Shown in pieces: positions 1,381-39,300 of a stretch of DNA of 64,000 nucleotides. The DNA comes from Hydrogenophaga pseudoflava (GTDB lineage: Bacteria > Pseudomonadota > Gammaproteobacteria > Burkholderiales > Burkholderiaceae_C). Position 1 is the stretch's first letter; the number at the start of each line of letters is the position of its first letter. A program made the position numbers and the translations under genes. The stretch covers positions 656,751 through 720,750 of the forward strand of contig NZ_JAVHJP010000001.1 in the NCBI RefSeq assembly GCF_031020795.1, given 5' to 3'. Below the pieces are notes generated by a model. The model was not told the origin of the DNA. It searched no databases and saw only the letters and a program-made list of their open reading frames with translations.

Positions 1381-1587
1381 GGGTTCCTCCGTTGCGGGCG
1401 AGGGCCTGCAAAACCATGATACGCCGCGCCCCTGGCGCCACCAAGACAGTGCGCCGCCCCCCGCTCCCCCGGGCATGGCATGCAGGCGGCGTGTCGGCGC
1501 CGTCCGACACCGCAGCGCGGGCGCGGCCGACACACGCGCGCCGGGGGCGGGCGGAGTATGGGATGACCTGCGACCACGGACCTTGCC

Positions 1588-2787
1588 ATGAACACACACC
1601 CACCGGAGACACCCACCGTGCCCACCATCCCCCAGCCGGTGATGCCCGGTGTGCAACGCTTCGTTCTCTGCGGCGCCGCCCTGGCGCTTGGCATCCTCGG
1701 TCTGCACTTCGGCAAGGCGTTGCTGATCCCGCTGGCGCTGGCGGCGCTGCTGGCCTTTGCGCTCGACCCGGCGGTGAACTGGCTGGAAAGCCGGCGGCTG
1801 CCGCGGGGCCTGGCGGTGGGCGCAGTGATGGCGCTGACCATCGCTGCGCTGCTGGGCGCCGCGGCGGTCGCGACCGTGCAGGTGGGCGAACTGGGGCAGG
1901 AACTCCCCACCCACCGCCAGAACATCCAGAAGAAGTTGCGCGAGTTGCGGCCGGCGCTGACCCCCTCGGGCACCACGCGGGAGATGACCCGCCTGATGGA
2001 CATGGTCTCCCGCGAGTTCGAAACCGCCACGCACGCCTTCGAACCGGCGGGCAGCACCAAGCCCAAGGTGCAGCAGGTCGCGGTGGAAACGCGCAGCGGC
2101 AGCGCCCGCGCCATCGACCTGGTGATGCGGGTGGGCGTGCAGCTGGCCACGGTGGCGCTGGTGCTGATCCTGGCGGTGATCATGCTGCTGCAGCGCGCCG
2201 AACTGCGCGACCGTCTGCTGCGCCTGCTGGGCGGAGACACCGAGCGCATGGCCGAGGCGCTGGCGGAGTCGGGCCGGCGCGTGAGCCGCTACCTCACCGC
2301 GCAGCTGATGGTGAATCTGGGCTATGGCGTGCCCATGGCCCTGGGCCTGTGGTTCATCGGCGTGCCGGGCGCCTGGCTCTGGGGCGGCCTGGCCACGGTG
2401 TTGCGCTTCGTGCCCTACCTGGGGCCGGCGCTGGGTGCGGTGATGCCGCTGGTGCTGGCCTTCGCGGTCGACCCCGGGTGGTCGATGGTGCTGTGGACGC
2501 TGGGGCTGATCGCCACCCTTGAGCTGATCAGCAACAACGTGGTGGAGCCGCTGGCCTACGGCAACTCCACCGGCGTCCTGCCGCTGGCGGTGCTGGTCTC
2601 GGCCGCGTTCTGGGCGCTGCTGTGGGGACCGGTGGGGCTGGTGCTGGCCACGCCGCTGACGGTGTGCCTGGTCGTGATGGGCCGCCACCTGGCACCGCTG
2701 CGCTTTCTGGACGTGCTCTTCAGCAGCGCACCCCGCAGGGCAATGATGCGCCGCACGGTGTCGGCACCGTCCTACACACCGCGCTGA
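1588..2787 (+). CDS. AI-2E family transporter / PerM-like membrane protein
   Basis: A 399-residue polytopic inner-membrane protein with the layout of the AI-2E/PerM (DUF20) family: two N-terminal hydrophobic segments (about residues 20-90), a soluble loop around 95-170 rich in charged residues, and then a block of hydrophobic helices to about residue 375. The C-terminal half contains ELISNNVVEPLAYGNSTG, the conserved family segment. Family members have been proposed to export autoinducer-2 or to be Na+(Li+)/H+ antiporters; nothing here separates these. The ATG at 1588 has only a weak ribosome-binding site and an internal ATG at 1642 is possible. The gene precedes the small envelope operon, and a regulatory motif lies inside its last codons. 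Confidence 0.85.
   Translation: MNTHPPETPTVPTIPQPVMPGVQRFVLCGAALALGILGLHFGKALLIPLALAALLAFALDPAVNWLESRRLPRGLAVGAVMALTIAALLGAAAVATVQVGELGQELPTHRQNIQKKLRELRPALTPSGTTREMTRLMDMVSREFETATHAFEPAGSTKPKVQQVAVETRSGSARAIDLVMRVGVQLATVALVLILAVIMLLQRAELRDRLLRLLGGDTERMAEALAESGRRVSRYLTAQLMVNLGYGVPMALGLWFIGVPGAWLWGGLATVLRFVPYLGPALGAVMPLVLAFAVDPGWSMVLWTLGLIATLELISNNVVEPLAYGNSTGVLPLAVLVSAAFWALLWGPVGLVLATPLTVCLVVMGRHLAPLRFLDVLFSSAPRRAMMRRTVSAPSYTPR
2759..2776. promoter_or_regulatory. Inverted-repeat motif (TGTCGG-N6-CCTACA), candidate regulator site
   Basis: The 18-mer TGTCGGCACCGTCCTACA has arms TGTCGG and CCTACA, an imperfect inverted repeat. It lies in the last codons of the upstream gene, about 98 bases before the DUF1328 start. 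The same arms and spacing occur at 6232-6249, and related copies occur at 5238-5255 and 5272-5289. Assignment to a regulator is inference. Confidence 0.5.
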
Positions 2788-2873
2788 CATTGACCGACAC
2801 CGATGCACCCACCCCACGCGCACACTGGGTCCATCGCAGCACTGGCGCTGCGGTAACCAACTAGGAGATCGCC

Positions 2874-3035
2874 ATGTTGCACTACGCCGTTGTGTTCTTC
2901 GTGATCGCACTGATCGCGGCCCTGCTGGGCTTCGGTGGCATCGCCGCCGGTGCCGCCGGCATCGCGAAGATTCTGTTCTTCGTGTTCCTGATCATGGCCG
3001 CGGCCACGTTTGTCTTCGGACTGATCAAGCGCTGA
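2874..3035 (+). CDS. DUF1328 family small membrane protein (YtjA-like)
   Basis: A 53-residue protein that begins [20 protein letters not shown] and has two hydrophobic helices (about residues 4-27 and 31-50) around the sequence [13 protein letters not shown], which is the signature of the DUF1328/YtjA family. The C terminus is LIKR. A good ribosome-binding site (AGGAG) sits 7 bases before the ATG. It is first in a run of four plus-strand envelope genes (2874-4500) and follows the inverted-repeat motif at 2759. In related bacteria these tiny proteins are found with stress genes; their molecular role is unknown. Confidence 0.9.
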
Positions 3036-3092
3036 CGGGGCCGCTTCGGTACCCGGTTCCATTCCCTTCTTCTTTCAACACAGGAGATCCTC

Positions 3093-3515
3093 ATGAACCC
3101 CCAAGTCAAGACCGCCCTGGACAACGCCCAGCACATGATCGAATCCGGTGCCGACAGCGCCCAGCATGCGGTGGCCCGTACCGCCGACAAGGCCGATGAA
3201 ATGATGACCCATTCGCGCCGGGCCGCCGCCGAAGCGGAGGCCAGCATCCAGGCTGGCCTGCGCCAGGTGCGCGACGCCGTGCCAGCTCACCTGAACCGAG
3301 CCGCCCACCGCGCCGAAGACCTGGCGCGCGCTGGCATCGACAAAGCCCGCGCCGCAGGCTCGGCCGTCGCGAACAAGGCCCACGAGGTGGGCGAACGCAC
3401 CACGGACTATGTGCGCCACGAACCCGGCAAGGCCCTGCTGATGGCGGCCGCCGTGGGCGCCGCGGCCACGCTGCTGTTGACCTGGGCGGCCAACCGCCGC
3501 GCCGAACGCTACTGA
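3093..3515 (+). CDS. DUF883/ElaB-YqjD-like membrane-anchored protein
   Basis: A 140-residue protein, mostly long amphipathic alpha helix rich in Ala, Asp, Arg and Glu (about residues 1-105), ending in a single C-terminal transmembrane segment (GKALLMAAAVGAAATLLLTW, about 112-131) and a short basic tail. This is the plan of the ElaB/YqjD/DUF883 family, whose E. coli members are C-tail-anchored inner-membrane proteins that bind ribosomes in stationary phase. A strong AGGAG precedes the ATG. It is followed by a YqjE-like gene 20 bases downstream, mirroring the E. coli yqjD-yqjE order, which supports the call. Ribosome binding here is not shown by the sequence. Confidence 0.8.
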   Translation: MNPQVKTALDNAQHMIESGADSAQHAVARTADKADEMMTHSRRAAAEAEASIQAGLRQVRDAVPAHLNRAAHRAEDLARAGIDKARAAGSAVANKAHEVGERTTDYVRHEPGKALLMAAAVGAAATLLLTWAANRRAERY

Positions 3516-3535
3516 CGCCGGCCAGGGCCCGCGCC

Positions 3536-3919
3536 GTGATACACCCCGCCTTCATGGCTTTGGCCCGCCAGCCCGGCTTGTTGCTGGAACACGCAGGCGC
3601 CTACGCAGACCTCGCTTCGGCCGAACTGGATGAGTGGGGCGAGCAATGGAAACTGCGGGCCGGGCTGAGCACCATCGCGGCCCTGCTGGCGGTGCTGGGC
3701 CTGGGCTTGGCTGGTGCGGCGGGCCTGGCAGCGGCCGCGGTGCCGCTGTCGGCGATGCCCATGCCGTGGCTGCTGGTGGTCATCCCGCTGGTGCCTCTGC
3801 TGCTGGCGGCAGGGCTCGCCTGGCGCGTGCACCGCCTCGAAAAGGCCGCCCTGTTTGCGGCCCTGCGTGAGCAGATGGCGCAGGACCTTGCGACCCTGCG
3901 CATCCTGGAAGAAGAATGA
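3536..3919 (+). CDS. Phage-holin family (YqjE-like) membrane protein
   Basis: A 127-residue protein with two transmembrane helices, about residues 42-68 and 76-96, between amphipathic ends that are rich in Glu, Arg and Leu. This matches the phage holin superfamily III/YqjE architecture, and the position directly after a YqjD-like gene supports it. The start is taken as the GTG at 3536; an in-frame ATG at 3554 (MALARQPGLL) is an equal alternative, and neither has a convincing ribosome-binding site, so translation may be coupled to the preceding gene. Its stop overlaps the next start by four bases (ATGA). Confidence 0.75.
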   Translation: MIHPAFMALARQPGLLLEHAGAYADLASAELDEWGEQWKLRAGLSTIAALLAVLGLGLAGAAGLAAAAVPLSAMPMPWLLVVIPLVPLLLAAGLAWRVHRLEKAALFAALREQMAQDLATLRILEEE

Positions 3920-4500
3920 ACACACCGCCGGAGCGCGTCCTTCCGACGGCCGAGCGCAAGGCGCGAGCCCTTGCACGGCTGGATGCTTCACGCACCCAGC
4001 TGATCCAGCGCCTCTACCCGGAGCCTTCAGGGCGACGGGCAGAAACCGGTACAGGTGGCCTGCTGGACCTCGCGGCCTCCCTGATGAGTTCAATGATGGC
4101 CCGCTCCAAGCGCGACGGCCTGCCACGAACCGCTTGGCGCACCGCCCGGGCCCTGGCGCGCCGGTGGTGGACCCGCCAGCCCTGGCACGCCTCGGTCGAG
4201 CTGGTGTCGGACACCCTGGCTGGCGACGTGCGGCTGCTCGTGCGCAGACACCCCTGGGCCAGCCTCGCGGCCGCCGCGGCCGTCGGCGCCGCCCTGACGA
4301 TGGCCCGCCCCTGGGTGGCCCACACACTGCGCCGTCAAACCCGCGACCTGCACCTGCGCGTCGGGCGCATGTTGTGGCGGCAGCTTGCACAGGCTCCGGT
4401 GCAACTGGCGCTGCTGGGCGCACTCACCGCCTGGCTCAAGGAACGCCGGCAGGACCCGAGCCACTCCCCGCCGCCGCCGACGCGCCCGGCCGATTCCTGA
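3916..4500 (+). CDS. Uncharacterised protein in the YqjK position of the envelope operon
   Basis: A 194-residue protein translationally coupled to the YqjE-like gene by an ATGA overlap. The N terminus is basic (TAERKARALARLDASRTQLI); a possible hydrophobic segment lies around LAAAAAVGAALTMARPW (about residues 116-132) and another around 154-171 (VQLALLGALTAWL). In E. coli the third gene of this operon is yqjK, a short basic membrane-associated protein; this protein is longer and I see no motif that proves homology. Its function is unknown; a role beside the DUF883 and YqjE proteins at the inner membrane is inferred from the operon only. Confidence 0.7.
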   Translation: MNTPPERVLPTAERKARALARLDASRTQLIQRLYPEPSGRRAETGTGGLLDLAASLMSSMMARSKRDGLPRTAWRTARALARRWWTRQPWHASVELVSDTLAGDVRLLVRRHPWASLAAAAAVGAALTMARPWVAHTLRRQTRDLHLRVGRMLWRQLAQAPVQLALLGALTAWLKERRQDPSHSPPPPTRPADS

Positions 4501-4517
4501 GGGTCCGGCCCAGGGGG

Positions 4518-5150
4518 TCACTGGATCAAGCCATTGGTCATTGCGTAGTAGGTGAGTTCGCTGTTGGTGGAGAGCTTGAGCTTTTCCAGCACGCGGGTGC
4601 GGTAGGTGCTCACCGTTTTCACACTCAGGAACATGGCCTCGGCCATGGCGCCGATGGTCTCTCCCTTGGCCAGCCGCAGGAACACCTGCAGTTCGCGTTC
4701 GGACAGCAGCTCGTGGGGCGGCCGGTCGAGACCGCCGGCCACGCCTTCGGCCAGCAGCGTGGCCACCGCCTGGCTGATGTACTTGCGGCCCATGGACACC
4801 GTGCGGATGGCCAGCACGATCTCGTCCGGCTCGCACTCCTTGTTCAGGTAACCGCTGGCGCCCAGGCGCAGCAGGTTGGTGGCGTAGTGCGCCTCGGGGA
4901 AGCCGCTGAGGATCAGCACCGCCAGATCCGGGAAGCGGGACTTGATGGCCTTGAGCGCGTCCACACCGCTCTGGTCGGGCATGGAGATGTCCAGCAGCAG
5001 CACGTCCACCTCGCCCGTGCGGGCCAGCTCCAGCGCCTCCGCGCCGTTGCTGGCCTCGCCGGTGACGCGCAGGTCCACGTGGTCGGCCAGGTACTGCCGC
5101 AACCCGGCCCTCACCACCGCGTGGTCGTCGACGATACCGATACGGATCAT
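4518..5150 (-). CDS. NarL/FixJ-family response regulator (LuxR-type DNA binding)
   Basis: A 210-residue two-domain regulator. The receiver domain (about 1-120) has the acidic pair D8-D9, the phospho-acceptor D54 in VDVLLLDISMPD, a Ser in LILSGFPEA and the conserved Lys in YLNKECEP. The C-terminal LuxR-type helix-turn-helix (about 145-205) contains LLSERELQVFLRLAKGET and SVKTVSTYRTRVLEKLKL. The ATG at 5150 gives the canonical start MIRIGIVDDH. It is divergent from the BON lipoprotein gene, and the shared 281-base region carries two copies of the inverted-repeat motif, so it may regulate itself and its neighbour. The NarX-type kinase at 6690 is the likely partner, by proximity only. Confidence 0.93.
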   Translation of the reverse strand: MIRIGIVDDHAVVRAGLRQYLADHVDLRVTGEASNGAEALELARTGEVDVLLLDISMPDQSGVDALKAIKSRFPDLAVLILSGFPEAHYATNLLRLGASGYLNKECEPDEIVLAIRTVSMGRKYISQAVATLLAEGVAGGLDRPPHELLSERELQVFLRLAKGETIGAMAEAMFLSVKTVSTYRTRVLEKLKLSTNSELTYYAMTNGLIQ

Positions 5151-5237
5151 GCGTTCGTTCTCCTTGTGTCCGGGTCTCTTGTGCAAACCGCCCCTGGGGC
5201 GGTGCGGACCAATGTAGCGCGCGGTCGCGGCGCTGTC

Positions 5238-5255
5238 CGTCAGACAGTTCCTACA
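5238..5255. promoter_or_regulatory. Inverted-repeat motif copy (CGTCAG-N6-CCTACA)
   Basis: The 18-mer CGTCAGACAGTTCCTACA matches 14 of 18 positions of the best copy at 6232-6249, with the CCTACA arm intact and a degenerate left arm. It lies between the divergent response regulator (start 5150) and the BON lipoprotein (start 5432). Confidence 0.4.
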
Positions 5256-5271
5256 CCCCTCCGACAGCGGG

Positions 5272-5289
5272 GCGGGGCGATGTCCTACA
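5272..5289. promoter_or_regulatory. Half-conserved motif copy (right arm TGTCCTACA)
   Basis: The right half TGTCCTACA is identical to that of the 6232-6249 site, while the left arm (GCGGGGCGA) has drifted. It lies 34 bases after the copy at 5238 in the same divergent intergenic region. A TACAGT hexamer at 5334-5339 could be a -10 element for the BON gene. Confidence 0.35.
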
Positions 5290-5431
5290 GGGGCACAGGG
5301 GGCCGACCGACAGGCCGCGACCCCATCGTTTTCTACAGTGACTGCACAGCACGGCGAGTTTCTTCGCCACCGCTGTTCCGGGCCGGTCGACGCACCGGCC
5401 TGCCACCTCCAACCCATCCAAGGAGCACGAG

Positions 5432-5869
5432 ATGAAACTTTCCAACCGCACACAGGCCGTCGTGGCCACCACCGCCCTTCTGATGTCGCTGGTCGCCTGC
5501 GGCCAGAGGGAAGACGCCACCGTCGGCCAGAAGATCGACGGCGCCATCAACAGCACCGAACAGGCCGCCCAGGAGGCCCGCCAGGACGCGAAGGAAGCGA
5601 CCACCGAGATGAAGCGCGACGGCGAAAAGGCGGCGCAGTCCGTGGCCGACACCGCGTCGGACGTGGCCATCACCACCAAGGTCAAGGCCGCACTGGCCGC
5701 GGACGACCAGCTCAGCGCGCTGAAGATCGAGGTCGACACCGTCGGCGGCGTGGTGTCGCTGACCGGCCCCGCGCCCACCGCCGAAGCGGCCGACCGCGCC
5801 ACCACCCTGGCCAAGGCCGTGGAAGGCGTGACCGACGTGCAGAACAAGCTGGTGGTGGGCCAGGGCTGA
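5432..5869 (+). CDS. BON-domain lipoprotein
   Basis: A 145-residue protein with a lipoprotein signal peptide (hydrophobic core near residues 9-20, lipobox LVAC with Cys at about 22), a charged helical linker rich in Ala, Glu, Lys and Asp (about 30-72), and a C-terminal BON domain (about 74-145). The BON domain shows the family pattern ITTKVKAALAADDQLSAL followed by GGVVSLTGPAPT and a terminal V-NKLVV strand. BON domains occur in OsmY/DolP-type proteins that bind phospholipid or protect the envelope under stress. An AAGGAG site precedes the ATG. It is followed by a second BON lipoprotein. Membrane destination is inferred from the lipobox. Confidence 0.88.
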   Translation: MKLSNRTQAVVATTALLMSLVACGQREDATVGQKIDGAINSTEQAAQEARQDAKEATTEMKRDGEKAAQSVADTASDVAITTKVKAALAADDQLSALKIEVDTVGGVVSLTGPAPTAEAADRATTLAKAVEGVTDVQNKLVVGQG

Positions 5870-5918
5870 CGCCCGCGCAACACCTTCCCGGCTGCCATCA
5901 ACCCATCAGGAGATCCGC

Positions 5919-6227
5919 ATGTTCAGAACCATCGCCCTCGCTTCGGCCCTGGCCCTTGGCGTCGTCACCGTGACCGGCTGCGCCGTGGCGCGCGACCAGC
6001 AGACGGTGGGGTCCTACATCGACGACACCACCATCACCACCCAGGTCAAGGCCCGTTTTGCCGAAGACCCGACCGTCAGCGCCATGTCCATCAAGGTGGA
6101 AACACTCAAGGGCGTGGTGCAGCTCTCCGGTTTCGCCAAGAACAACGCCGAACGCGAACAGGCCGCCACCATCGCGGCCAACGTGAAGGGGGTTTCGCGT
6201 GTGACCAACGACATCATTGTGAAATAA
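5919..6227 (+). CDS. Small BON-domain lipoprotein
   Basis: A 102-residue protein consisting of a lipoprotein signal peptide (core ALASALALGVVTVTGCA, Cys at about residue 21) and a single BON domain from about residue 33 to the end, with DDTTITTQVKARFAEDPTVS, GVVQLSGFAKNNAER and a terminal VTNDIIVK strand. The AGGAG before the ATG fixes the start. It is shorter than its neighbour at 5432, to which it is similar in the BON core, suggesting a tandem duplication. The stop lies four bases before the inverted-repeat motif that precedes the receiver/kinase pair. Confidence 0.9.
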   Translation: MFRTIALASALALGVVTVTGCAVARDQQTVGSYIDDTTITTQVKARFAEDPTVSAMSIKVETLKGVVQLSGFAKNNAEREQAATIAANVKGVSRVTNDIIVK

Positions 6228-6231
6228 AGTG

Positions 6232-6249
6232 TGTCGGACATGTCCTACA
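6232..6249. promoter_or_regulatory. Near-perfect 18-bp palindrome, candidate response-regulator operator
   Basis: TGTCGGACATGTCCTACA is an 18-bp inverted repeat with one mismatched pair, centred on ACATGT. It sits between the BON stop (6227) and the receiver gene (6303). A TATCGT hexamer at 6271-6276 would place the palindrome centre about 42 bases upstream of a start site, a classic activator position. The symmetry and spacing suit a dimeric LuxR-type regulator; the regulator at 4518-5150 is the obvious candidate. Confidence 0.6.
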
Positions 6250-6302
6250 GCGGTGGCCACGCACAGTGGCTATCGTTGCAGGACTGCCCAGGCCCATGTT
6301 CC

Positions 6303-6680
6303 ATGCCGACCCTCAGCGCGTTCATCGTCGAAGACAACCCCACCATCCTCAGCAACCTGGTCGCCACCCTGGAAGAGCTGACCAGCGTGAGGATCGTGGG
6401 GTCCGCACCATCCGAGGAAGCCGCGGTGCGTGGGCTGCACGAGCACGCCACCGACCTGGACCTGGTCATCGTGGACATCTTCCTTTCGGCGGGCAGCGGC
6501 CTGGGTGTGCTGGAGGCCGCCCAGGGCATGCAGATGCGCGCCCGTCGCGTGGTGCTCTCCAACTTCGCCACCCCGGAGGTGCGGCGCCGCTGTCTGGCGC
6601 TGGGCGCGGCCGAGGTGTTCGACAAGTCCAGGGACCTGGACGCCCTGATCGACTATTGCGACAAGCTGGCCGAGGTCTGA
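6303..6680 (+). CDS. Receiver-only response regulator
   Basis: A 125-residue single-domain receiver. Visible conserved residues are E10-D11 (acidic pocket), D58 in DLDLVIVDIFL (phospho-acceptor), S86 in VVLSNFATPE and K108 in EVFDKS. No output domain follows. The ATG at 6303 is preferred over an in-frame GTG at 6231 because the latter would place translation through the operator palindrome and add residues that do not fit the fold. The kinase gene begins 9 bases downstream, so the pair is probably one transcript. Without a DNA-binding domain it may act as a phosphate sink, a relay or a protein-binding switch. Confidence 0.88.
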   Translation: MPTLSAFIVEDNPTILSNLVATLEELTSVRIVGSAPSEEAAVRGLHEHATDLDLVIVDIFLSAGSGLGVLEAAQGMQMRARRVVLSNFATPEVRRRCLALGAAEVFDKSRDLDALIDYCDKLAEV

Positions 6681-6689
6681 CACTGCCAC

Positions 6690-8072
6690 ATGCCCGTGCC
6701 ACCCAGCCCCACACCCGACACCGAACGCGTCCAGCGCATCCGCAACCGCTTTGAAGTGGCCGCCCGCGGCCGCTACACCATGCCCCTGGTCATTGCCCTG
6801 GGTGTGGTCGGCATGGTGGTCAACGAGAGCGCCTACCGCCACTCCGAAGCCACCCTGGACAACGGCATCGCGCTCACCGATGCGCGCGTCAAATCGGCCG
6901 AGACGCTGCAGCGGCTCACCGAGGTCGGTCTGTATGCACGGTCCTACATCCTCACCGCCAGTCCAGAGGAAGCGGTCCGCTACCGCGCAGCGGTGGACGA
7001 TCTGCATGAGATCAAGGACAGCGCCTTGGCCCTGCTCAACCGGGAAGTCCCCGAAGAGTCGGTGTCGGTGGAGCCCATCGAACGACTGATCGACGAGCAC
7101 ATCCGGACCACCGACGCCTGGATGGCGATGGTCGACCGGGGCGAACGCGCCCCCGCCATCGCCGCCGCCGCCAGCCATGCCAGCCTGGAGCGCCGCAATG
7201 CCCTGCGGCAGGCTTTTGCCGAGGTGCTGGAGCAGACGGCCGCGGTGCAGCAGAAGGCACGGATCGACCTCTACGACGCGCTGATGATCAACCGCGTGGC
7301 GGTGCACCTGCTGGCGCTGGCCACCATGCTCGGCCTGTTCCTGTTCCAGCGCCAGCTGCACCGGGGCGACCGGCAGATGCTCGAAGAGGGGCAGCGACTG
7401 GCCGCCCGGGTGAAGGAGCGCACCGCCGAGCTGAGCGAGATGGCCACCCACCTGGTCAATGTGCGCGAAGACGAGCGCGCCCACATCGCCCGCGAACTGC
7501 ACGACGAACTGGGCGGTCTGCTGACCTCGATGAAGCTGGACTTCGCCCGGCTGCGCCGCCAGCCCGACCTGCCGGCCAGGACGGTGGAGCGCATCCAGGC
7601 GATCGAGGCCCGGCTCGGGGAGGGCATCGCCCTCAAGCGCCGCATCATCGAAGACCTGCACCCGTCCGCGCTCTCGCAGCTGGGCCTGGTGCAAGCACTG
7701 GAGATCCTGTGCCGCGAGATGGCGGAGCGGCTGGACAGGCCGGTGCATGCCGAGCTGCAGGATGTGGCGCTGGACCGCCCGGCGCAGCTGGCGCTCTACC
7801 GCATCGCGCAGGAATCACTGACCAACATCGGCAAGTACGCCGGCTGCGCCGAGGCCCGGGTGCGCCTGCAGGCCGAGGGTGCCACGGTGCGCCTGAGCAT
7901 TCACGACAACGGCAAGGGCTTCGACCCGCAGCGCGTGCCGCACGGCCGCCACGGTTTGCTGGGCATGCGCATGCGGGTCGAGTCGCACGGCGGACAGCTG
8001 CAGGTGGACAGCGCGCCCGGCACCGGCACCACCATCGTCGCGATCCTGCCGTCCCGGGCCGAACCGGGCTGA
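6690..8072 (+). CDS. NarX/DegS-type sensor histidine kinase
   Basis: A 460-residue membrane kinase. Transmembrane segments lie at about residues 30-45 and 203-220, enclosing a helical extracytoplasmic domain of about 155 residues that resembles CHASE3-type four-helix sensors. The HisKA_3 phospho-acceptor is H271 in HIARELHDELGGLLTSMKLD, and the HATPase domain (about 365-455) shows an N-box (AQESLTNIGKYA), DNGKGFD and HGLLGMRMRVESHGG. This class normally pairs with LuxR-type regulators such as the one at 4518-5150; the adjacent receiver-only protein may share or buffer its phosphate. The signal is unknown, although linkage to BON and envelope genes suggests envelope stress. Confidence 0.92.
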   Translation: MPVPPSPTPDTERVQRIRNRFEVAARGRYTMPLVIALGVVGMVVNESAYRHSEATLDNGIALTDARVKSAETLQRLTEVGLYARSYILTASPEEAVRYRAAVDDLHEIKDSALALLNREVPEESVSVEPIERLIDEHIRTTDAWMAMVDRGERAPAIAAAASHASLERRNALRQAFAEVLEQTAAVQQKARIDLYDALMINRVAVHLLALATMLGLFLFQRQLHRGDRQMLEEGQRLAARVKERTAELSEMATHLVNVREDERAHIARELHDELGGLLTSMKLDFARLRRQPDLPARTVERIQAIEARLGEGIALKRRIIEDLHPSALSQLGLVQALEILCREMAERLDRPVHAELQDVALDRPAQLALYRIAQESLTNIGKYAGCAEARVRLQAEGATVRLSIHDNGKGFDPQRVPHGRHGLLGMRMRVESHGGQLQVDSAPGTGTTIVAILPSRAEPG

Positions 8073-27354: not shown

Positions 27355-30300
27355 TCAGCCGGCGACGGTGGAGCGGGTGATCGGGCGGGCACTGAGCGCC
27401 CGGTCCTTGGCAAAGCGCTGCAGCTGCTGGCGCAGACCCTTGGCCGCCTGGGGCTTGTCCAAGGGTTTTTCGACCGCCTTGAGCGTTTCCTTGACCGGAG
27501 CTTCGGGCGCCACCGGTTCGGCGGCGGCCTTGGTCAGCGGTTCGGTGCCTTGCTCGCGCAGCTGCGCCTGGGTCAGACGGGCGGCCGAGCCTTCGGGCTG
27601 CGGGGCGCCCAGCGCGAACTGGTCGGTCAGCGTCCCGAACCCGGGGGTGGCCGACTGGTTGGCGTCCACGGTGGCCGAGCGCAGCATCGATTCGAGCTGC
27701 GAGGCGCGCACCGCGTGCTGCACCCACAGGCTCGGATCGGTGGTGATCGGCTGGTGGCGCACCGCGTGCTGCACGTACAGCGCCGGGCTCGGCGCCTGCA
27801 GCTCGCCGTAGCCGGGCTCGCGCACCAGCCCCAGAGGCATGCCCTGCGCGTTGTTCGCGAACAGCAGGCTGTCGGGCAGCTGCGCCATGGCTTCGCCCAG
27901 CAGCGGTGCGCCCACGGGCAGTGCACCCAGCGGGGACGAGGACAGTTCCCTCTCTCCGCTGGCATCGGCCACGGCGTACAGCACGTGCAGTTCGCTGACG
28001 GTCGGCGGTGGCGACACCGGCGGGCGCGGCACCTCGGGCACAGGCGCCGGCGCGGGTGCCGGCGCGGGTGCCGGCGCGGGTGCCGGGGCAGGCGACGGAG
28101 CCGGCGCCGGTGCGGGCGCTGGCGGAGGTGCCGGCGGCGCTGGCGGCGGTGCGGTCGGCTCGCCCGGAATCGCGGCGAACGAGAGCACGGCGGACGACGT
28201 GGCGCTGCCATCGCTGATCGTGTAGGTCGCGCTGGGGATCGGCCCTGTGTAACCCGGCAGCGGGGTGAAGGTGAACGAGCCGTCCTGGTTGATCACCAGG
28301 GTGCCCACGCCAGGGATGGTGGCGGTGTCGCCCGGCGGGAAGCTGCCCGGCACACCGGTGATGGTGAAACCGGTGACCGTCAGCGGGTCGCCGTTCGGGT
28401 CGCTGTCGTTGGGCAGCACGTTGCCGGTGACCGGGGTGTCCACCGCGGTCGGCAGCGGGCCGTCGTTGGTCGCCACGGGCGCGCCGTTGGGCACATCGGC
28501 GAAGCTCAGCACCGCACTGTCCGTGCCGCCCTGGCCGTCGCTGAGGGTGTAGGTGGCCGGCGGCACCGGGCCGGCATAGCCGCTGGCCGGGGTGAAGGTG
28601 TAGCCGCCGTTGGTGCCGATCACCAGTGTGCCGACGAGGTCGCCGGCGTTGTCGCGGATCGTGGCAGTCTGGCCCGCGGCAAAGCCCTCGGGCGTGCCAT
28701 CGCCGTTGGTGTCCACGGCAAAACCGGACACCACCAGCGGATCGCCGTCGACATCGCTGTCCACGCCCGAACCGTTGTTGTCGGTGATGACGTTGCCCGA
28801 CACCGGTGTGCCCGGTGTGGTCGGGATCGGTCCGTTGTCGGTCGCCACCGGGGCGTCGTTCACCGGGTCCACCAGCAACCGGATGGTGGCCGTGGCGGTC
28901 AGGCCATCGGGGTCCTCGACGGTGTAGTTGATCGGCACCGGGGTGCCGGTGTTGTAGTAATCGGGCTCGGGCGTGAAGGTGAGCGTGCCGTCCGGGTTGA
29001 GCACCAGCTGGCCGATCGGATCGCCGCTGACCGGGTCGTTGATCACCACGGGCGTGCCGGGGGTCAAGTTGACACCGTTGATCTGCGTGATCTCCAGCGG
29101 CTGGCCTTCCGGATCGCTGTCGTTGGTCAGCGGGTTGAAGGTGACCGGCTGGTCTTCCTGGCCGCGCACGTTGTCGTTCTGCGCGATCGGCGGGTCGTTG
29201 GACGCATCCACCACGATGTTCAGGGTGGCGGTGTCGCTGCCGCCGTTGCCATCCGACACGGTGTAGACCACCGGCGGCACGGCGCCCTCGAAGCCGGGCT
29301 CCGGGTCGAAGGTGTAGCTGCCATCGGCGTTGACCGTCAATTCGCCCACGTTGAGGATGGTCAGCGGTGTGCCCGGCACGCCCGGCACACCATTGACGGT
29401 GAAGCCCGACACCGTGAGCACGTCGCCATCGGGGTCGCTGTCGACGCCGCCCGCGACCGGGCCGTTGCCGTCGTCGGTCAGCAGGTTGCCGCTCACGTTG
29501 GTGTCCGGCGCCGCAATGGCGCTGTTGTCTTCGGCCACCGGCGCGTCGTTCAGGCCGTTGACGGTGATGGTCAGCGTGGCGGCGGCGGTCTGGCCGGCCG
29601 GATCGGTGACGGTGTAGGTGAACACGTCCTGCACCGCCACACCGGTCGGCAGGGCCTGCGCCGCGGCGGTGGGGGTGTAGCCGTAGCTGCCATCGGCATT
29701 CAGCACCAGGGTGCCGTAGCTGCCCACCACCGGCGCACCCACGCCGCCCGCGGCGCCGTTGACGGCGCTCACCGAGAGGCTGTCGCCGTTGGGGTCACTG
29801 TCCACGCCACCCGGTGCCGCACCGCTCTGGATCACGCCGTTGGCGGCCGAGACCGTCAGCGCCGCGTCTTCCGTGGTGCTGTTGGTGTCCGGCTGGGCCA
29901 CGGGGGCAAGGTTGTCCTCGCCCACTTCGATGGTGACCGTCGCGACCGCGGTCTCGCCCGACGGGTCGGCCACCGTGTAGCCGAAGCTGGCCGTGCCGGT
30001 GTAGCCGGTGGCCGGCGTGAACACCAGCTGGCCGCCGACCAGTGCCACCGTGCCATTGGCCACGGGAACGGCCGCGCCGCCCTCGGTGATCGCCTGGCCG
30101 TCCACCGCCGTCACCGCCAGGGTGTCGCCATCCGGATCGCTGTCGTTGCCCCGCACATCGACGCTCACCGGCGTGCCCACCGGCGTCACCGTCGCATCGT
30201 CGCTGGCGACCGGCGGGTCGTTCACCGGCGTCACCGTGACCGTCACCTGGGCATTGAGTTCGTTGCCCAGGCGGTCTTCCACCGTGTAGTTGAAGGCCAC

Positions 30301-33300
30301 CGGGCCGTTGAATCCGGGCGCCGGTGTGAAGACCAGCTGGTCGTCGGTCGGGTCGGCCGGGTCGCCCCCGCTGAGGCTGACCACGCCGATCGGCAGCCCG
30401 GTGCCGCTGTCCACCAGCGTCACCGGAGAGCCCGACGAGATGGGGCTGCCGTTGATCTCGGTGATGGTCAGGGGGCCTTCGCTGCCAGGATCGTCGTTGT
30501 CCAGCACGTCGATGGTCACCGGCGTGTCTTCCGGCGTGGTGGCGTTGTCGCCCACGACCGAAGGTGTCTCGCTCAGCGGCGTCACCGTGATGTTCAACGT
30601 GGCGGTGTCGGTGCCGCCGTTGCCGTCGCTCAGCGTGTAGACCACCTGGGGCGCATTGCCCACGAAGGCGGGCAGCGGGTCGAAGGTGTAGCTGCCATTG
30701 CTGTTGATGGTCAGGTCACCGACACCGGGGATGGTGAGCGGGCTGCCCACCACACCGGACACGCCGCCGACGGTGAAGGCACTCACGCTGAGCGTGCCGC
30801 CATCCAGGTCGCTGTCCACGCCGTCACCGGTGTTGTCCGTGATCAAGTTGCCGCTGACGTTGGTGTCCTGGATCGTCGTGGCCACGTTGTCGGTGGCCAC
30901 CGGTGCATCGTTGACCGGCGCCATCGTCAGCGTCAGCGTCGAGGTGTCCGTGCCGCCCTGGCTGTCGCTCACGGTGTAGGTCACCACCGGAATCGCACCG
31001 GCGTAGTTGGCCGCCGGCACGAAGCTGTAGCTGCCGTTGCCGTTGATCGTCAGTGCGCCCACGCCGGCGATGGTCGCCGTCTGGCCCGCCGTGTAGGCCG
31101 TCGCGTCGCCCGCCACCGTGAAGCCGCTGATGGACAGCGGGTTGCCGTCCACGTCGCTGGCGTTGTTCAGCAGGTCGCCCGCGGCGCCGTCGGCCACCGT
31201 CAGCGTCGTGTCTTCCGTGACCGTGTTGGTCTCGTCACCGTCCACCGGCGCGTCGTTGACCGGCGCGATGTTCATCGTCACCGTCGCCGTGTCCGTGCCG
31301 CCGCGGCCGTCGTCCACCGTGTACTGGAACGTCACCCCGTTGCCGTTGAAGTTCGCATTGGGCGTGAAGGTCAGCGTGCCGTTCGCGTTCAGGCTCAGCA
31401 CGCCCTCGGGCAGCGTCACCGGCGAGCCGGTCGTGATCGGGTTGCCGTTGATCTCGGTGATCGACAGCGGGTCGCCGTCCGGGTCCGTGTCGTTGGACCT
31501 CGGGTCGAAGCTCACCGGGCTGTCCTCACTGCCCGCCACCACGTTGTCCTGCGCCACCGGCGGGTCGTTCACGTCGTCGATCACCACGTGCACGTTGGCC
31601 GTGTCCGTGGCCGTGCCGTCGCTGATCGTGTAGCCGAAGTCCACCGCACCGTTGAAGCCCGCCGCCGGCGTGAACGTGATCGTGCCGTCCGCGTTGAGCG
31701 TGGCCGTGCCGTTGGCCACCGCGATGGGCACACCCACCGTCGCCGCCTGGCCATCGATCTGCGTCACGGTCAGCGTCTCGCCGTCCACGTCCGTGTCGTT
31801 GCCCAGCACCGCAATCGTCACCGGCGTGTCTTCGGCCGTCGTGCGGCTGTCGTCCACCGCCACCGGCGCGTCGTTCAGACCATTGACCGTGATGGTCAGC
31901 GTGGTCGTGGCCGTCAGGCCGCCCGGGTCGCTGACCGTGTAGGTGAACACGTCGCTCTGGCTCTCGCCGGCATCCAGCGCCTGCGCCGCCGCGTTGGGCA
32001 CGTAGGTGTAGCTGCCGTTGGCGTTGAGCGTGAGGTTGCCCCAGGCGCCGGAGAGCACCGCGCCCACCGTTCCAGGCGTGCCGCCGAAGGAGACCGCGCT
32101 GACCGAGAGCGTGTCGCCGTCGATGTCCGTGTCCGCGCCGACCGCCCCCAGGATCACCCCGTTGGCCGCGTTCACGCTCAGCGTCGCGTCTTCCGTCGTG
32201 CTGTTGGTGTCCGGGTTGGCTTCGGGCGCATCGTTGATGCCGCCCACGTTGACCGTCACCGTCGCCATGTCGGTGCCGCCGTTGCCGTCGCTGATGACGT
32301 AGGTGAAGGTGTCGGTGCCCGTGAAGTCCAGGTCCGGCGTGTACACCAGGTTGCCGCTGCCATCGAGCGTCACCGTGCCGTTGGCCGGGTCGGTGAAGCT
32401 GCTGACCGTCAGGCTGTCGCCGTCCACGTCGCTGTCGTTGGAGCGCACCAGGATCGTCACCGGCGTGTCCTCCGGCGTGGTCGTGCTGTCGTCCACCGCC
32501 ACCGGCGCGTCGTTGACCGGCGTGACCATCACGTTCACGTTCGCCGTCACCGGCGTGCTGCCGTCCGTGGCGGTGTAGGTGAAGCTCACCGGGCCGTTGT
32601 AGTCGGGCGCCGGCGTGAAGGTGATGGTGCCGTTGGCGTTGAGCGTGGCGCTGCCGTTGGCCACCGCCACCGGCACCCCCACCACCGCCGCCTGGCCGTC
32701 GATCTGCGTCACGGTCAGCGTGTCGCCGTCGGCGTCGCTGTCGTTGAGCAGCACATCGATGGTCACCGGCGTATCTTCCGGCGTGGTCGCCACGTCGTCC
32801 GAGATCGAGGGTGTGTCGTCCAGCGGCGTGACCGTGATGTCCAGCGTGCTGCTGCTGCCCGTGTTGGTGGTGTACGTCACCTGCGGCACGCTGCCGTTCC
32901 AGTCCGTCTCGGGCGTGAAGGTGTAGTCGCCGTTGCTGCCCAGGGTCAGCGTGCCCACGCCGGCGATCACCGCCGTCTGGCCCGCCGTGTAGGCCGTCGC
33001 GTCGCCCGCCACCGTAAAGCTGCTGACGCTCAGCGCATCGTCCACGTCCACGTCGTTGGCCAGCACGTTGCCCGTGGCCGGGATGTCCTCGGGCGTGGTG
33101 TCCGTGTCCGCCGTGAGCACACTCGGATCGTTGACCGGCGCCATCGTCAGCGTCAGCGTCGAGGTGTCCGTGCCGCCCTGGCTGTCGCTCACGGTGTAGG
33201 TCACCACCGGAATCGCACCGGTGTAGTTCGGGGCCGGCGTGAACGAGTAGGAGCCGTCGGGGTTGATCGTCAGGTCGCCGACGCCCGCAATCGTGGCCGT

Positions 33301-36300
33301 GTCGCCTGCGGTTCGCAGGCTGCCGTTGACGGTGAAGTCGGTGATCGTGAGCGGGTTGCCGTCCACGTCGCTCGCGTTGTTCAGCAGATCGCCCGCAGCG
33401 CCGTCGGCCACCGTCAGCGTCGTGTCTTCCGTGACCGTGTTGGTCTCGTCGCCGTCCACCGGCGCGTCGTTGACCGCCGCCATGGTCAGCGTCAGCGTCG
33501 AGGTGTCGGTCCCCCCGTTGCCGTCGCTCACCGTGTAGGTCGCCACCGGAATCGCACCCGTGTAGTTGGCCACCGGTGTGAACGAGTACGAGCCGTTGCC
33601 GTTGATGGTCAGCGCGCCCACGCCGGCAATCGTCGCCGTCTGGCCCGCCGTGTACGCCGTGGCGTCGCCCGCCACCGTGAAGCCGCTGACGCTCAGCGCA
33701 TCACCATCGACATCGCTGGCGTTGGCCAGCAGGTCGCCCGCGGCACCATCGGCCACCGTCAGCGTGGTGTCCTCCGTCACCGTGTTGGTCTCGTTGCCGT
33801 CCACCGGCAGATCGTTCACCGGCGCCATCGTCAGCGTCAGCGTCGAGGTGTCCGTGCCGCCGTTGCCGTCCGTGACCGTGTAGGTCGCCACGGGAATCGC
33901 CCCCGTGTAGTTGGCCACCGGCGTGAAGCTGTACGAGCCGTTGCCGTTGATGGTCAGCGCGCCCACGCCGGCAATCGTCGCCGTCTGGCCCGCCGTGTAG
34001 CTGGTCGCATCGCCCGCCACCGTGAAGCCGCTGATGCTCAGCGCGCTGCCTTCGACGTCGCTGGCGTTGTTCAGCAGGTCGCCCGCAGCGCCATCGGCCA
34101 CCGTCAGCGCCGTGTCTTCCGTGACCGTGTTGGTCTCGTCGCCGTCCACCGGTGCGTCGTTGACCGCCGCCATGGTCAGCGTGAGCGTCGAGGTGTCGGT
34201 CCCCCCGTTGCCGTCGCTCACCATGTAGGTCGCCACGGGAATCGCACCCGTGTAGTTGGCCACCGGAGTGAACGAGTACGAGCCGTTGCCGTTGATGGTC
34301 AGCGCACCCACGCCGGCAATCGTCGCCGTCTGGCCCGCCGTGTAGGCCGTGGCGTCGCCCGCCACCGTGAAACCGCTGATGCTCAGCGCATCACCATCGA
34401 CATCGCTGGCGTTGGCCAGCAGGTCGCCTGCAGCGCCGTCAGCAACCGTCAGTGTGGTGTCTTCCGTCACCGTGTTGGTCTCGTTGCCGTCCACCGGCAG
34501 ATCGTTCACCGGCGCCATCGTCAGCGTCAGCGTCGAGGAGTCCGTGCCGCCGTTGCCGTCCGTGACCGTGTAGGTCGCCACGGGAATCGCCCCCGTGTAG
34601 TTGGCCACCGGCGTGAAGCTGTACGAGCCGTTGCCGTTGATCGTCAGCGCGCCCACGCCGGCGATGGTGGCCGTCTGGCCCGCCGTGTAGGCCGTCGCGT
34701 CGCCCGCCACCGTGAAGCCGCTGATATTCAGCGGATTGCCGTCCACGTCCGTGGCATTGGCCAGCAGGTCCTGAGGCGAGCCGTCGGCCACCGTCAGCGC
34801 CGTGTCTTCCGTGACCGTGTTGGTCTCGTCGCCGTCCACCGGTGCGTCGTTGACCGGGGTCATGGTCAGTGTCAGCGTGGACGCATCGGTGCCGCCGTTG
34901 CCGTCCGTGACGGTGTAGGTCGCCACCGGAATCGCACCCGTGTAGTTGGCCACCGGCACGAAGCTGTAGCTGCCGTTGCCGTTGATGGTGAGCGCACCCA
35001 CGCCGGCGATCGTCGCCGTCTGGCCCGCCGTGTAGCTGGTGGCATCACCGGCCACCGTGAAGCCGCTGATGCTCAGCGCATCACCGTCGACATCGCTGGC
35101 GTTGGCCAGCAGGTCGCCTGCAGCGCCGTCGGCCACCGTCAGTGTGGTGTCCTCCGTGACGGTGTTGGTCTCGTCACCGTCCACCGGTGCATCGTTGACA
35201 CCGACCACGTTGATATTGACGACCTCGGTTTCCGTCACGCCACTGGGGCTGGTGACGGTGTACGTGAAGCTGTCCGGGCCGGTGTAGTCGGGTTCGGGTG
35301 TGTAGGTGAACTCGCCGTTGCTGCCCACCACCAGCGTGCCATGACTGGGACTGGTGTTGCCAGTCACCGTGGGCGTGCCCTCGAAGTTGTCCGCGCTGGC
35401 ACCACCGGTGCCGGTCAGTACGTTGAAGGTGACCGGGGTTTCCTCGTTGGTGCTGACGTTGTCGGTGACGGTGTCCTGCACCGGCGTGATCGCCACCTGC
35501 ACGACGTCGGTGGTGGTGGCGGACCCCGAAATGTTGATGGCGTCCAGGAAGTTGCCGAACGTGGGGTTTCCTCCGGCGGCGCTGACGCTGTTGAACTGGA
35601 GCACCACGGCATTGCCGGTGGCCGGCCCCAGATTGGCCTGGTACTGCTGCCACGCGGCGTTGCCGGTGGTGTAGTTCTGGCTGAACAGCACGGTGTCGTC
35701 GCCACCGCCCAGCACCCCATCGGCCCCCAGGTCGATGGCGGTGACGTTCATGGTGTCGTCACCGGAACGGCCCCGGTGGGCGAACGACAGTTCGAGGTCG
35801 CCACCGGCGATGGACGGGGTGAAGGTCTGCGACAGGGTGGACACCAGGTTGGCGTTGAGCTCCGCGAACTGGTCGCCCTCGAAGGCCTCGACGCCGTTGT
35901 GGCCGGAGTCCCAGATTTCGATGGTGTTGTCGCTGGCCGAGGTGTCCCAGCCAGGCACCAGCGACTCGTTCACCGCGTGGTAGGCATTGGCGTCCGCAAA
36001 GTCAGGGCTCTCAAAGCCTGCGTTGACAAAACCCAGGTCCAGTGGACGCTTGAGCGTGACTTCGAGGTCCGCGGTGGTCGCGCTGTTGTAGTCGGCCGTC
36101 GGCGTGAGCGTGAGTCCGTTGAGGGCGGCGTTGACCGATGTGATCGTGCCGGTCAGGATGATCTGGTTGCTGCCGTTGCCGCTGACGCTGACCAGGCCCG
36201 CGGTGCCCGAGAGCTGCAGGCTGCCGATGTCGGCCGGAATTTCCAGCGTCACCTGGACCACGGCATTGGTGTTGTCGGGGTCGGTGATGGAAATGGCATT

Positions 36301-39300
36301 GCCGTTGGCGTCGGAGAACACCAGTGGTGTGTCCTCGGTGGTGGACACCGTGGGCGGGGCGTTGGTTTGCGGAGCGGAGGTGATTGACACATCCACCGTG
36401 TAGGTGTTGCTGCCGCCCAGACCGTCGCTGACGGTGTAGGTGAAGCTGTCCGATCCGCTGTAGCCGGGTTCGGGGGTGTAGATGTAGCTGCCGTCGGCAT
36501 CGACGACCACGGTCCCATGGCTGGGCGCGGTGGTCTGCGTGTAGGTGATCGGGTCACCTTCCGGGTCGCTGGCCGTCGGCAGGTTGCCGGCAAACGGTAG
36601 GTCCTGGGGAGTGGAGATCTGGTCGTTCGATGCCACCGGAGGGTCGTTGACCGCCGCCATGGTCAGCGTCAGCGTCGAGGTGTCGGTCCCCCCGTTGCCG
36701 TCCGTGACGGTGTAGGTCGCCACCGGAATCGCCCCCGTGTAGTTGGCCACCGGAGTGAACGAGTAGCTGCCGTTGCCGTTGATGGTCAGCGCACCCACGC
36801 CGGCGATCGTCGCCGTCTGGCCCGCCGTGTACGCCGTGGCGTCGCCCGCCACCGTGAAGCCGCTGATGCTCAGCGCATCACCATCGACATCGCTGGCGTT
36901 GGCCAGCAGGTCGCCCGCGGCACCATCGGCCACCGTCAGCGCCGTGTCCTCCGTCACCGTGTTGGTCTCGTCACCGTCCACCGGCAGATCGTTCACCGGC
37001 GCCATCGTCAGCGTCAGCGTCGAGGTGTCCGTGCCGCCGTTGCCGTCCGTGACCGTGTAGGTCGCCACGGGAATCGCCCCCGTGTAGTTGGCCACCGGCG
37101 TGAAGCTGTACGAGCCGTTGCCGTTGATGGTCAGCGCGCCCACGCCGGCAATCGTCGCCGTCTGGCCCGCCGTGTAGCTGGTCGCATCGCCCGCCACCGT
37201 GAAGCCGCTGATGCTCAGCGCGCTGCCTTCGACGTCGCTGGCGTTGTTCAGCAGGTCGCCCGCAGCGCCGTCGGCCACCGTCAGCGTCGTGTCTTCCGTG
37301 ACCGTGTTGGTCTCGTCGCCGTCCACCGGAGGGTCGTTGACCGCCGCCATGGTCAGCGTCAGCGTCGAGGTGTCGGTCCCCCCGTTGCCGTCGCTCACCG
37401 TGTAGGTCGCCACCGGAATCGCACCCGTGTAGTTGGCCACCGGTGTGAACGAGTACGAGCCGTTGCCGTTGATGGTCAGCGCGCCCACGCCGGCAATCGT
37501 CGCCGTCTGGCCCGCCGTGTACGCCGTGGCGTCGCCCGCCACCGTGAAGCCGCTGACGCTCAGCGCATCACCATCGACATCGCTGGCGTTGGCCAGCAGG
37601 TCGCCCGCGGCACCATCGGCCACCGTCAGCGTGGTGTCCTCCGTCACCGTGTTGGTCTCGTTGCCGTCCACCGGCAGATCGTTCACCGGCGCCATCGTCA
37701 GCGTCAGCGTCGAGGTGTCCGTGCCGCCCGCGCCGTCGGACACGGTGTAGGTGATCACCGGGACGGCATCGTCGAAGTCGGGCAGCGGCGTGAAACTGTA
37801 GCTGCCGTTGCTGTTGATGGTGATCGATCCCACACTGGGAATCACCAGGGGCGTGCCCACCACGCCCGCGCCGACGCCGGGCACAGTGAAACCGGTGACG
37901 GTGGCCGTGCCGCCGTCGATGTCGACGGTGTTGTTCAGCAGATCGCCCGCGGCGCCGTTGGCCACCGTCAACGTGGTGTCTTCCGTGACCGTGTTGGTCT
38001 CGTTGCCGTCCACCGGTGCGTCGTTCACGGCACTCACGGTGATGTTGACCGTGTCGCTGTCGAAGAGCCCGGCCACGTCGGTCGAGCGGACCGTCAGCAC
38101 GGCCGGACCGAAGTAGTTGCTGGTCGGCGTGTAGGTGATGGACGCCAGAGCGGCGTTGATCTGTGCCGAGGTGCCCGACAAGGTCAGCGTGCTGGTGCCG
38201 TTGGTGCCCGACGAGATGGTGGCCCCTCCCGCCAGGCTCACGTTCAGCACGCCGTTGGTCACAGTCAGCTGGGTGGTGGCCAGATTGCCGTCCGGGTCGC
38301 TGGTCGACACACCGGTGATGGTCAGCGTGCCGTCTTCGGCCACGGTCTGTGCCCCCGGCACCACGTTGACTGGCGGCCGATTGTTCAGACCGAAATCGAT
38401 CGCCAGGTTGCTGGAACCGATCTGGCCGACGTCCGCAGTGGCATTGGTGTTGCCACCGGCCGTGGTGTAGGTCCGACCGGCCCCCAGCACGTTGCCGGTG
38501 TCGGTCACCTGCACGATGTAGCTGCCCGGCAGCGCGCCGGTGAACAGGTAGAAGCCGTTCGCATCGGTGGTGTCGGTCGCCAGCACCCGCTCGCCGGCGT
38601 CTACCACGCCGTTGTTGTTCACGTCGTCCACCAGCCGCACAGTCACACCCGCGATGCCGGAGTCGGTGCCGTCGAAGCTGCCGTTGCCATTGGTGTCGGT
38701 GAAGACGCGGTCACCGATCTGCGCAGTGGGCGGAGTCCAGCTGGCGGCGTCGTTCAGCGCGCCCAGCGAGGTGGTGCCGTTGGTGGTGATGCTGATCGCC
38801 GACCCGATCAGGGCCCCGGTGGTGGGGTTGTACTGCTGGATGGCGGTGCTCAGCAGGTAGTTGCCACCGGCCTGGGTCTCGGCACCCTGGGTGTTGGTGG
38901 TCGCCACAGACAGCGTACCGGCGTTGGTTGCGGACGTGCCCGCACCGTTCAGGGTGTAGCGCGTGACGTTGACCGCCGTGCCCGCGCCGTTCAGCGACGA
39001 GCTCTGCAGCGAGTTGGTGGCGGCGTCGTAGCCCAGGTCGCCCCAGTCGTTGCCGGTGATGTTGGTGACCAGGGCGGCGATGCCGGTCACGGTGCGCCCG
39101 TCGGCCGAGAAGGTGAGGCGGTAGATGGTGTCGTCGGACGTGGTCCCGAAGCCATCGCCCCCCAGGTTGTTCTCGACGCCCAGGTACAGGAACCCCGTGC
39201 TGTCCACAAAGGTGGCCGCGCCACTGCCCACACCGGTGGCACCCACGGTCACGTTGGTGGCCAGGCCCGTGGTCAGGTTGCTGTCCACGACGATGTGGAC

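Follow-up and report, generated by a model that had tools for sequence, protein, structure and literature searches.

We detected, in a 64,000-bp stretch of a Hydrogenophaga pseudoflava genome (contig NZ_JAVHJP010000001.1, positions 656,751 to 720,750; hereafter the window), a set of palindromic sites that share one spacing and stand in a fixed register to predicted promoters. Judged from the sequence, these are probably the operators and promoters through which a two-component system of the NarL/FixJ type governs a small envelope-stress regulon, its own genes included. The cluster concerned spans 1.5-8.1 kb of the window and encodes a permease, small envelope proteins, a response regulator, BON-domain lipoproteins, a stand-alone receiver and a sensor kinase. 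The motif, its spacing, its conservation, the promoter register and the neighbouring target genes were established by computation, and the register of the -10 elements is the strongest result of the analysis. The genome is close to H. pseudoflava and H. flava, the regulator being 98% identical.

Motif spacing and promoter register

An earlier note on this DNA had reported exact copies of TGTCGG-N6-CCTACA at 2759-2776 (TGTCGGCACCGTCCTACA) and 6232-6249 (TGTCGGACATGTCCTACA), and both are present in the sequence. It had overlooked a third full copy, of the form TGTMGG-N6-CCKACA, at 1492-1509 (TGTCGGCGCCGTCCGACA). With at most one mismatch allowed, TGTMGG-N6-CCTACA matches the window eight times (four places, both strands); 100 shuffles of the window gave 0.17 matches on average and never more than 2.

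The motif was also followed through 110 loci around relatives of the regulator (1.30 Mb). The spacing test was run on L016-L125, and the matrix and placement counts on L017-L125 plus the first 12 kb of the window (110 loci). Genes in the loci were predicted with a simple predictor of our own, and some genomes are perhaps represented twice, one identical pair (L019/L059) having been seen. TGTMGG and CCKACA lie six bases apart in 52 matches, from 44 of the 110 loci, whereas each of the other spacings (0-5 and 7-20) gave 0-3 matches and reversed half-sites gave 0-1. An iterated palindromic position weight matrix (PWM) yielded the consensus YGTMGGAC-NN-GTCCKACR, with G at position 5 in 86% and A or C at position 4. 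At 12 bits or more, 230 sites were intergenic and 74 coding (1.26 vs 0.066 per kb, 19 times denser between genes), and eight column-shuffled matrices gave 0-5 intergenic sites. An intergenic site was present in 103 of the 110 loci and showed the register described below, in some direction, in 96. Of the 158 sites in the 61 long loci, 133 fall within 2 kb of the regulator. A scan of relatives had been proposed in the earlier note; in these loci the motif is conserved, keeps a strict spacing of six and is densest between genes.

A contig named Balneatrix alpica DSM 16621 (L105:8001-8630) carries a 74% identical regulator together with a TGTAGGACTAGGCCTACA site. By its name we take this organism to be a gammaproteobacterium, and the occurrence could reflect transfer or contamination.

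Downstream of the palindrome, 329 site-gene pairs were aligned, a site between divergent genes being counted for both. A -10-like ANNNT begins 22, 45 or 68 bases past the palindrome in 203 of them, and 23 other register triples gave 16-51. When the four core gene clusters are left aside, the figures are 69 of 141 pairs and 2-23, respectively. The commonest is register 45 (148/329), with the operator at about -65, farther upstream than the -35 region. An extra half-site CCKAY, 18 bases past the palindrome and so one 23-bp step on, is found in 73 of the 329 pairs (mean over all offsets, 3.6). Half-sites 21, 44 and 67 bases ahead of the -10 occur in 55, 114 and 19 of 208 promoters, counts that are partly built in because the promoters were chosen by register; the half-site at +18 is the independent part. 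The sites form a ladder with a step of 23 bp, about two helical turns, in which the last rung takes the -35 position. As far as sequence alone can tell, this is the arrangement of activator-dependent sigma-70 promoters, with the operator at a fixed distance from the -10 and over the -35 position.

Repression could potentially be read from the same geometry, with the regulator covering the -35 region and blocking transcription. Register-22 sites do overlap the -35 position, among them those of the regulator and receiver promoters of the window. The predominance of register 45, often with a half-site where the -35 hexamer would stand, is however the layout of an activator-dependent promoter, and we consider repression quite unlikely.

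All five promoters of the window fit the 23-bp ladder, which is what binding of a NarL/FixJ-type activator near -42, -65 and -88 would lead one to expect. The permease and DUF1328 promoters consist of a palindrome, CCGACA 23 bp on, and then the -10, and those of the regulator and the receiver-kinase operon of a single palindrome directly ahead of the -10. The BON promoter has three half-sites at 23-bp steps, followed by TACAGT. The first four are the strongest ladders in the window, scoring 22-30, and the best ladder in 20 Markov-1 windows scored 14.6. Across the loci, register 45 is found in 23 of 30 BON site-gene pairs. The proposed elements are as follows.

1492-1509, plus strand: operator palindrome TGTCGGCGCCGTCCGACA, 19.0 bits, promoter of the AI-2E-family permease gene
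1527-1532, plus strand: second half-site CCGACA, 23 bp beyond the right half of the 1492-1509 site
1554-1559, plus strand: proposed -10 GAGTAT, register 45, permease promoter
2759-2776, plus strand: operator palindrome TGTCGGCACCGTCCTACA, 20.0 bits, DUF1328 operon promoter
2794-2799, plus strand: second half-site CCGACA (+23), DUF1328 operon promoter
2821-2826, plus strand: proposed -10 CACACT, register 45, DUF1328 operon promoter
5211-5216, minus strand: proposed -10 TACATT, register 22, regulator's own promoter
5238-5255, minus strand: operator of the regulator's own promoter, 19.3 bits
5261-5266, plus strand: BON promoter rung 1, half-site CCGACA
5284-5289, plus strand: BON promoter rung 2, half-site CCTACA (within the weak copy 5272-5289 of the earlier note)
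5307-5312, plus strand: BON promoter rung 3, half-site CCGACA
5334-5339, plus strand: proposed -10 TACAGT, BON promoter
6232-6249, plus strand: operator palindrome TGTCGGACATGTCCTACA, 26.9 bits, the highest in the window, receiver-kinase operon promoter
6271-6276, plus strand: proposed -10 TATCGT, register 22, receiver-kinase operon promoter

Two weaker copies had also been claimed, at 5238-5255 and 5272-5289, and all copies had been placed ahead of envelope genes or of the receiver/kinase pair. The copy at 5238-5255 (CGTCAGACAGTTCCTACA) holds up by its PWM score in spite of two mismatches. For 5272-5289 (3.9 bits) only the right half stands, and this half coincides exactly with one rung of the BON promoter ladder. 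The claimed placement is right, but 5238-5255 best fits the regulator's own minus-strand promoter. A further copy at 6931-6948 (12.7 bits), inside the kinase gene, is probably due to chance and was set aside as coding.

Genes of the cluster and other proposed targets

The genes of the cluster, with the basis of their annotation, are listed below.

1588-2787, plus strand: AI-2E transporter family permease (PF01594), profile match
2874-3035, plus strand: DUF1328 small membrane protein, YtjA-like, profile match
3093-3515, plus strand: YqjD/ElaB-like protein, so named by presumed resemblance; no Pfam or NCBIfam match
3536-3919, plus strand: holin superfamily III-like membrane protein, under the Pfam cut-off, which we take to be YqjE-like
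3916-4500, plus strand: DUF883_C-like glycine-zipper protein, under the Pfam cut-off
4518-5150, minus strand: response regulator with REC and GerE domains, NarL/FixJ family, UvrY/GacA-like, proposed operator binder; profile matches and sequence comparison
5432-5869, plus strand: BON-domain lipoprotein, OsmY-like, profile match
5919-6227, plus strand: second BON-domain lipoprotein, profile match
6303-6680, plus strand: stand-alone receiver domain protein, profile match
6690-8072, plus strand: HisKA_3/HATPase sensor kinase with a weakly CHASE3-like sensor region, profile matches

The kinase has both HisKA_3 and HATPase_c, as in kinases of the NarX/UhpB type, and the CHASE3 match of its sensor region is weak and under the Pfam cut-off.

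Among the relatives, a site lies ahead of the receiver gene in 69 of the 90 loci that have this gene, ahead of the regulator in 42 of 101, ahead of BON genes in 30 of 64 and ahead of DUF1328 in 25 of 42. Sites in register also precede genes for beta/gamma-crystallin glycine-zipper, CsbD, PRC-barrel, DUF3309 and WXXGXW proteins and for several small proteins without a family, some of these extra targets being single cases. Genes of the osmoprotectant-binding OpuAC type have a site upstream in all eight loci where they occur, and in six of these (L026, L030, L095, L107, L112, L120) the receiver gene diverges across the same operator. They were not counted as targets, since none of their promoters shows the register and the receiver shares the site; one operator might serve both genes.

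A 61-residue protein (cluster 12, e.g. L061:8668-8853), for which neither Pfam nor NCBIfam gave a match, has a register-45 site ahead of its gene in 13 of the 14 loci where it occurs.

Elsewhere in the window, the minus strand contains an open reading frame of 4390 amino acids (27355-40527) with 345-bp tandem repeats at 33127-35199 and 36633-38016, of the kind seen in large repetitive surface proteins. Recurring TGTAGGT...CCACCGGAA matches in the window are mostly due to these repeats.

The regulator as candidate binder

The product of 4518-5150 carries PF00072 (94.3 bits) and PF00196 (49.6 bits), both above cut-off, as in NarL/FixJ (LuxR_C) regulators. Its best NCBIfam match is UvrY/SirA/GacA (NF007018) with 176 bits, below the curated cut-off of 280. 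Its identity to E. coli UvrY is 39%, and the recognition helices of the two are similar. That of the regulator, LSVKTVSTYR[TSA]R, is near-invariant across 102 loci. By hand count, 63 of 120 family genomes have a relative of at least 59% identity. A class-level comparison at E 1e-65 gave matches in 4 of 229 genomes, three of which belong to the family.

The earlier note had proposed that the LuxR-type regulator encoded between the sites binds them as a dimer and controls a small regulon. This is the best-supported reading of the sequence, to which the strict spacing, the -10 register, the sites ahead of the regulator gene and the receiver-kinase operon, and the conserved remote target all point. 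It can be refined on three points: the regulator is a NarL/FixJ response regulator of the kind controlled by phosphorylation, an additional site suits the AI-2E-family permease promoter, and one weak copy is a half-site. The predicted link between regulator and operator rests on autoregulation, position and family resemblance.

From this we infer the local regulator as binder, activation as the outcome, the signal, and the receiver's role. The kinase would sense an envelope or osmotic signal, so read because of the targets, and phosphorylate the response regulator. The phosphorylated regulator would bind YGTMGGAC-NN-GTCCKACR as a dimer, and dimers would stack in 23-bp steps at about -42, -65 and -88, the last over the -35 region with its end 21 bases ahead of a sigma-70-type -10. 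RNA polymerase would be recruited to five promoters: those of the DUF1328 operon, the receiver-kinase operon, the permease gene, the BON lipoprotein genes and the regulator gene. The stand-alone receiver, expressed from an activated promoter, may drain phosphate and damp the response; the receiver as a phosphate sink is a guess.

Co-occurrence across genomes lends weak support to the link. Of the 63 family genomes that have the regulator, 56 carry DUF1328, as do 5 of the 57 that lack it (hand count). Of 87 listed places, 70 were examined at the DUF1328 promoter, and one stretch without a tblastn match was dropped: a site in register is found in 47 of 64 stretches with the regulator and 1 of 5 without (p=0.027). 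In the first set of 50, mostly the closest copies among regulator-bearing genomes, the counts were 36/45 and 1/5 (p=0.013); the 20 stretches added later were mostly second or more distant copies. None of four near-complete genomes with DUF1328 and without the regulator has an in-register site ahead of DUF1328, and three of the four nevertheless have matches to the regulator (G049, E 4e-43; G050, 5e-41; G056, 5e-63).

These three genomes bear on another explanation, in which the operator belongs to a different NarL/FixJ regulator, for example the paralogue G000:C1:917070, and the local regulator is merely one of its targets. The paralogue is 45% identical to the regulator and its recognition helix (LSPKTVSVYRARVLEKL) is similar; moreover, 101 of 120 family genomes have some match at E 1e-40, many among the matches listed being at 44-50% identity. 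G049, G050 and G056 all have matches beyond this threshold, yet they lack the in-register site ahead of DUF1328. The sites of the long loci, in addition, mostly lie within 2 kb of the local regulator and precede both its gene and the receiver-kinase operon, and the paralogue's own 9-kb locus holds one weak match of 12.0 bits. We regard this explanation as unlikely. In that locus (L168, G000:C1:912500-921500), the second UvrY/GacA-like regulator stands beside its own REC-HisKA_3-like kinase and next to genes that we presume from their resemblance to be flagellar.

Genome-wide counts bear on the size of the regulon. Exact matches to TGTMGG-N6-CCKACA number 10 over the 4.98-Mb genome, and three of these fall within 4.8 kb of one another in this cluster. 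Only 9 of 120 family genomes contain the strictest pattern (TCC on both sides). A wider pattern, counted by hand, gave 28 sites (reversed control 20) in the 63 genomes that have the regulator and 4 (reversed control 15) in the 57 that lack it (p=0.007). Among the 27 of these 32 sites that were examined, the register is present in 11 of 23 from genomes with the regulator and 0 of 4 from those without. The sole remote wider-pattern site in this genome with the register plus a half-site, G000:C18:337290, precedes a 70-residue open reading frame without a Pfam or NCBIfam match, and in 7 of 26 loci homologues of this target are preceded by a site, at -82 to -97, with register 45. A site at C16:505806 (CGTCGGCCCTGTCCTACA), ahead of a small membrane protein, has no -10 in register and is doubtful as a target. 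The regulon in its own genome seems small, comprising the local cluster, one conserved remote target and one doubtful one.

Several observations weigh against the proposed regulon. None of the seven remote exact matches has the ladder register, and among the 38 of 93 one-mismatch places elsewhere that were examined, the register appears in 3, against 1-11 for other registers (both directions), which is no excess over chance. The expectation that the motif would be more frequent than random throughout the genome fails for these looser matches outside the cluster; a small regulon follows from their lack of excess. The paralogue could, from its sequence, bind the same operator. Neither L219, a locus outside the family with a 57% identical regulator, nor L218, inside the family with a more distant one, has a site of 9 bits or more, and 7 of the 110 loci have no intergenic site although the recognition helix there is like the others. 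The BON promoter of the window has no full palindrome, and its ladder score of 12.9 lies within the chance maxima. The one positive DUF1328 stretch from a genome without the regulator comes from a genome that is 76% complete, and for DUF1328 copies below 70% identity the counts (7/16 with vs 0/4 without) are too few to decide. CsbD promoters do not separate the groups (10/39 with vs 1/9 without, p=0.66; two of 50 stretches, both without the regulator, were dropped for lack of a tblastn match). Lastly, the PWM was trained on the loci in which its sites were counted, a circularity controlled by the column shuffles and by the promoter register, which was not used in building the matrix.

The sole CsbD-positive genome without the regulator is G056, where a homologue of 50% identity lies about 2 kb from the DUF1328 gene; the 59% identity cut is therefore imperfect. 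An altered recognition helix was rejected as the reason for the site-less loci, the helices there being unchanged. The operator in L219 may have diverged; that locus (L219:67-2127) keeps the receiver and YqjD/YqjE-like neighbours beside its regulator.

Loose matches are common in this GC-rich genome (103 with at most one mismatch vs 63 for the reversed pattern, a count that is uninformative), and the motif could be taken for a dispersed palindromic repeat or a by-product of codon usage, of no regulatory meaning. The strict spacing, the intergenic placement, the fixed -10 register and the conserved remote target speak against this, as does the lack of register among the loose matches examined elsewhere, and it appears very improbable.

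Known systems and the wider family

The BarA-UvrY/GacS-GacA systems share with the present one a NarL/FixJ regulator of similar length with a similar recognition helix. BarA is a hybrid kinase, whereas a HisKA_3 kinase and a separate receiver are found here. E. coli uvrY lies in a uvrC/pgsA neighbourhood, and the regulator here has no uvrC neighbour. The proposed operator targets here, unlike those of BarA-UvrY/GacS-GacA, are protein-coding envelope genes; for CsrB/RsmZ-type small RNAs, no Rfam match was found in the window, the only part searched. UvrY is described as binding the 18-nt palindrome TGTAAG-N6-CTTACA (PMC4682653), which has the same 18-bp frame and TGT...ACA outer arms as the operator here but AG/CT as inner bases in place of GG/CC. 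By sequence, the regulator resembles GacA/UvrY and would fall outside the UvrY/SirA/GacA equivalog by cut-off, neighbourhood and operator.

RcsB, the NarL/FixJ regulator of the enterobacterial phosphorelay, is likewise linked to envelope stress, and its site sequence differs. The regulator scores 67 bits against the RcsB cut-off of 235 in NCBIfam, and the cluster is without RcsC/D/F-type parts. The nearest solved full-length structures are VraR (E 2.6e-33) and DevR (5.9e-29). VraR and DevR/DosR bind arrays of palindromic sites near -42 and farther upstream, in other organisms and with other site sequences and targets. Half-sites of EvgA and BvgA resemble TCCTACA. RcsB structures were solved with 18- and 22-mer DNA (PMC5829831).

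The target genes are of the same kind as the sigma-S envelope and osmotic set of enterobacteria, which includes ytjA, osmY and yqjD/elaB, and are served here by a dedicated two-component operator. A table of Salmonella genes under tight sigma-S control includes ytjA (DUF1328) (PMC5437024). EupR of Chromohalobacter, involved in ectoine uptake, is a NarL/FixJ regulator in osmoadaptation, and the kinase proposed for it is of the hybrid type and carries an SSF-type sensor domain; the system as described in the available text includes no receiver or BON/DUF1328 cluster (PMC2964678). Searches of an open-access library found nothing on the present two-component system.

The kind of system, a NarL/FixJ two-component regulon, is known, and the member, the operator and the ladder geometry appear to be new. 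The joint reading, in which a widespread and undescribed envelope-stress two-component system of this Burkholderiales family places sigma-S-type genes under a GacA-like regulator, with strength set by rung number and a receiver as brake, is in our view evenly poised. If it is true, promoter strength would be set by the number of 23-bp rungs (one to three) ahead of the -10, the co-induced stand-alone receiver would be a built-in brake, and a GacA-like regulator with its own operator would have taken over genes that enterobacteria place under sigma-S. For a stress response of a large family, reaching across Hydrogenophaga, Roseateles, Rubrivivax, Ideonella and others, the analysis predicts a regulator, its operator, the layout of the promoters and a list of targets. 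Small envelope proteins of obscure role (DUF1328, BON, CsbD and unnamed families) would thereby gain a testable regulatory context.

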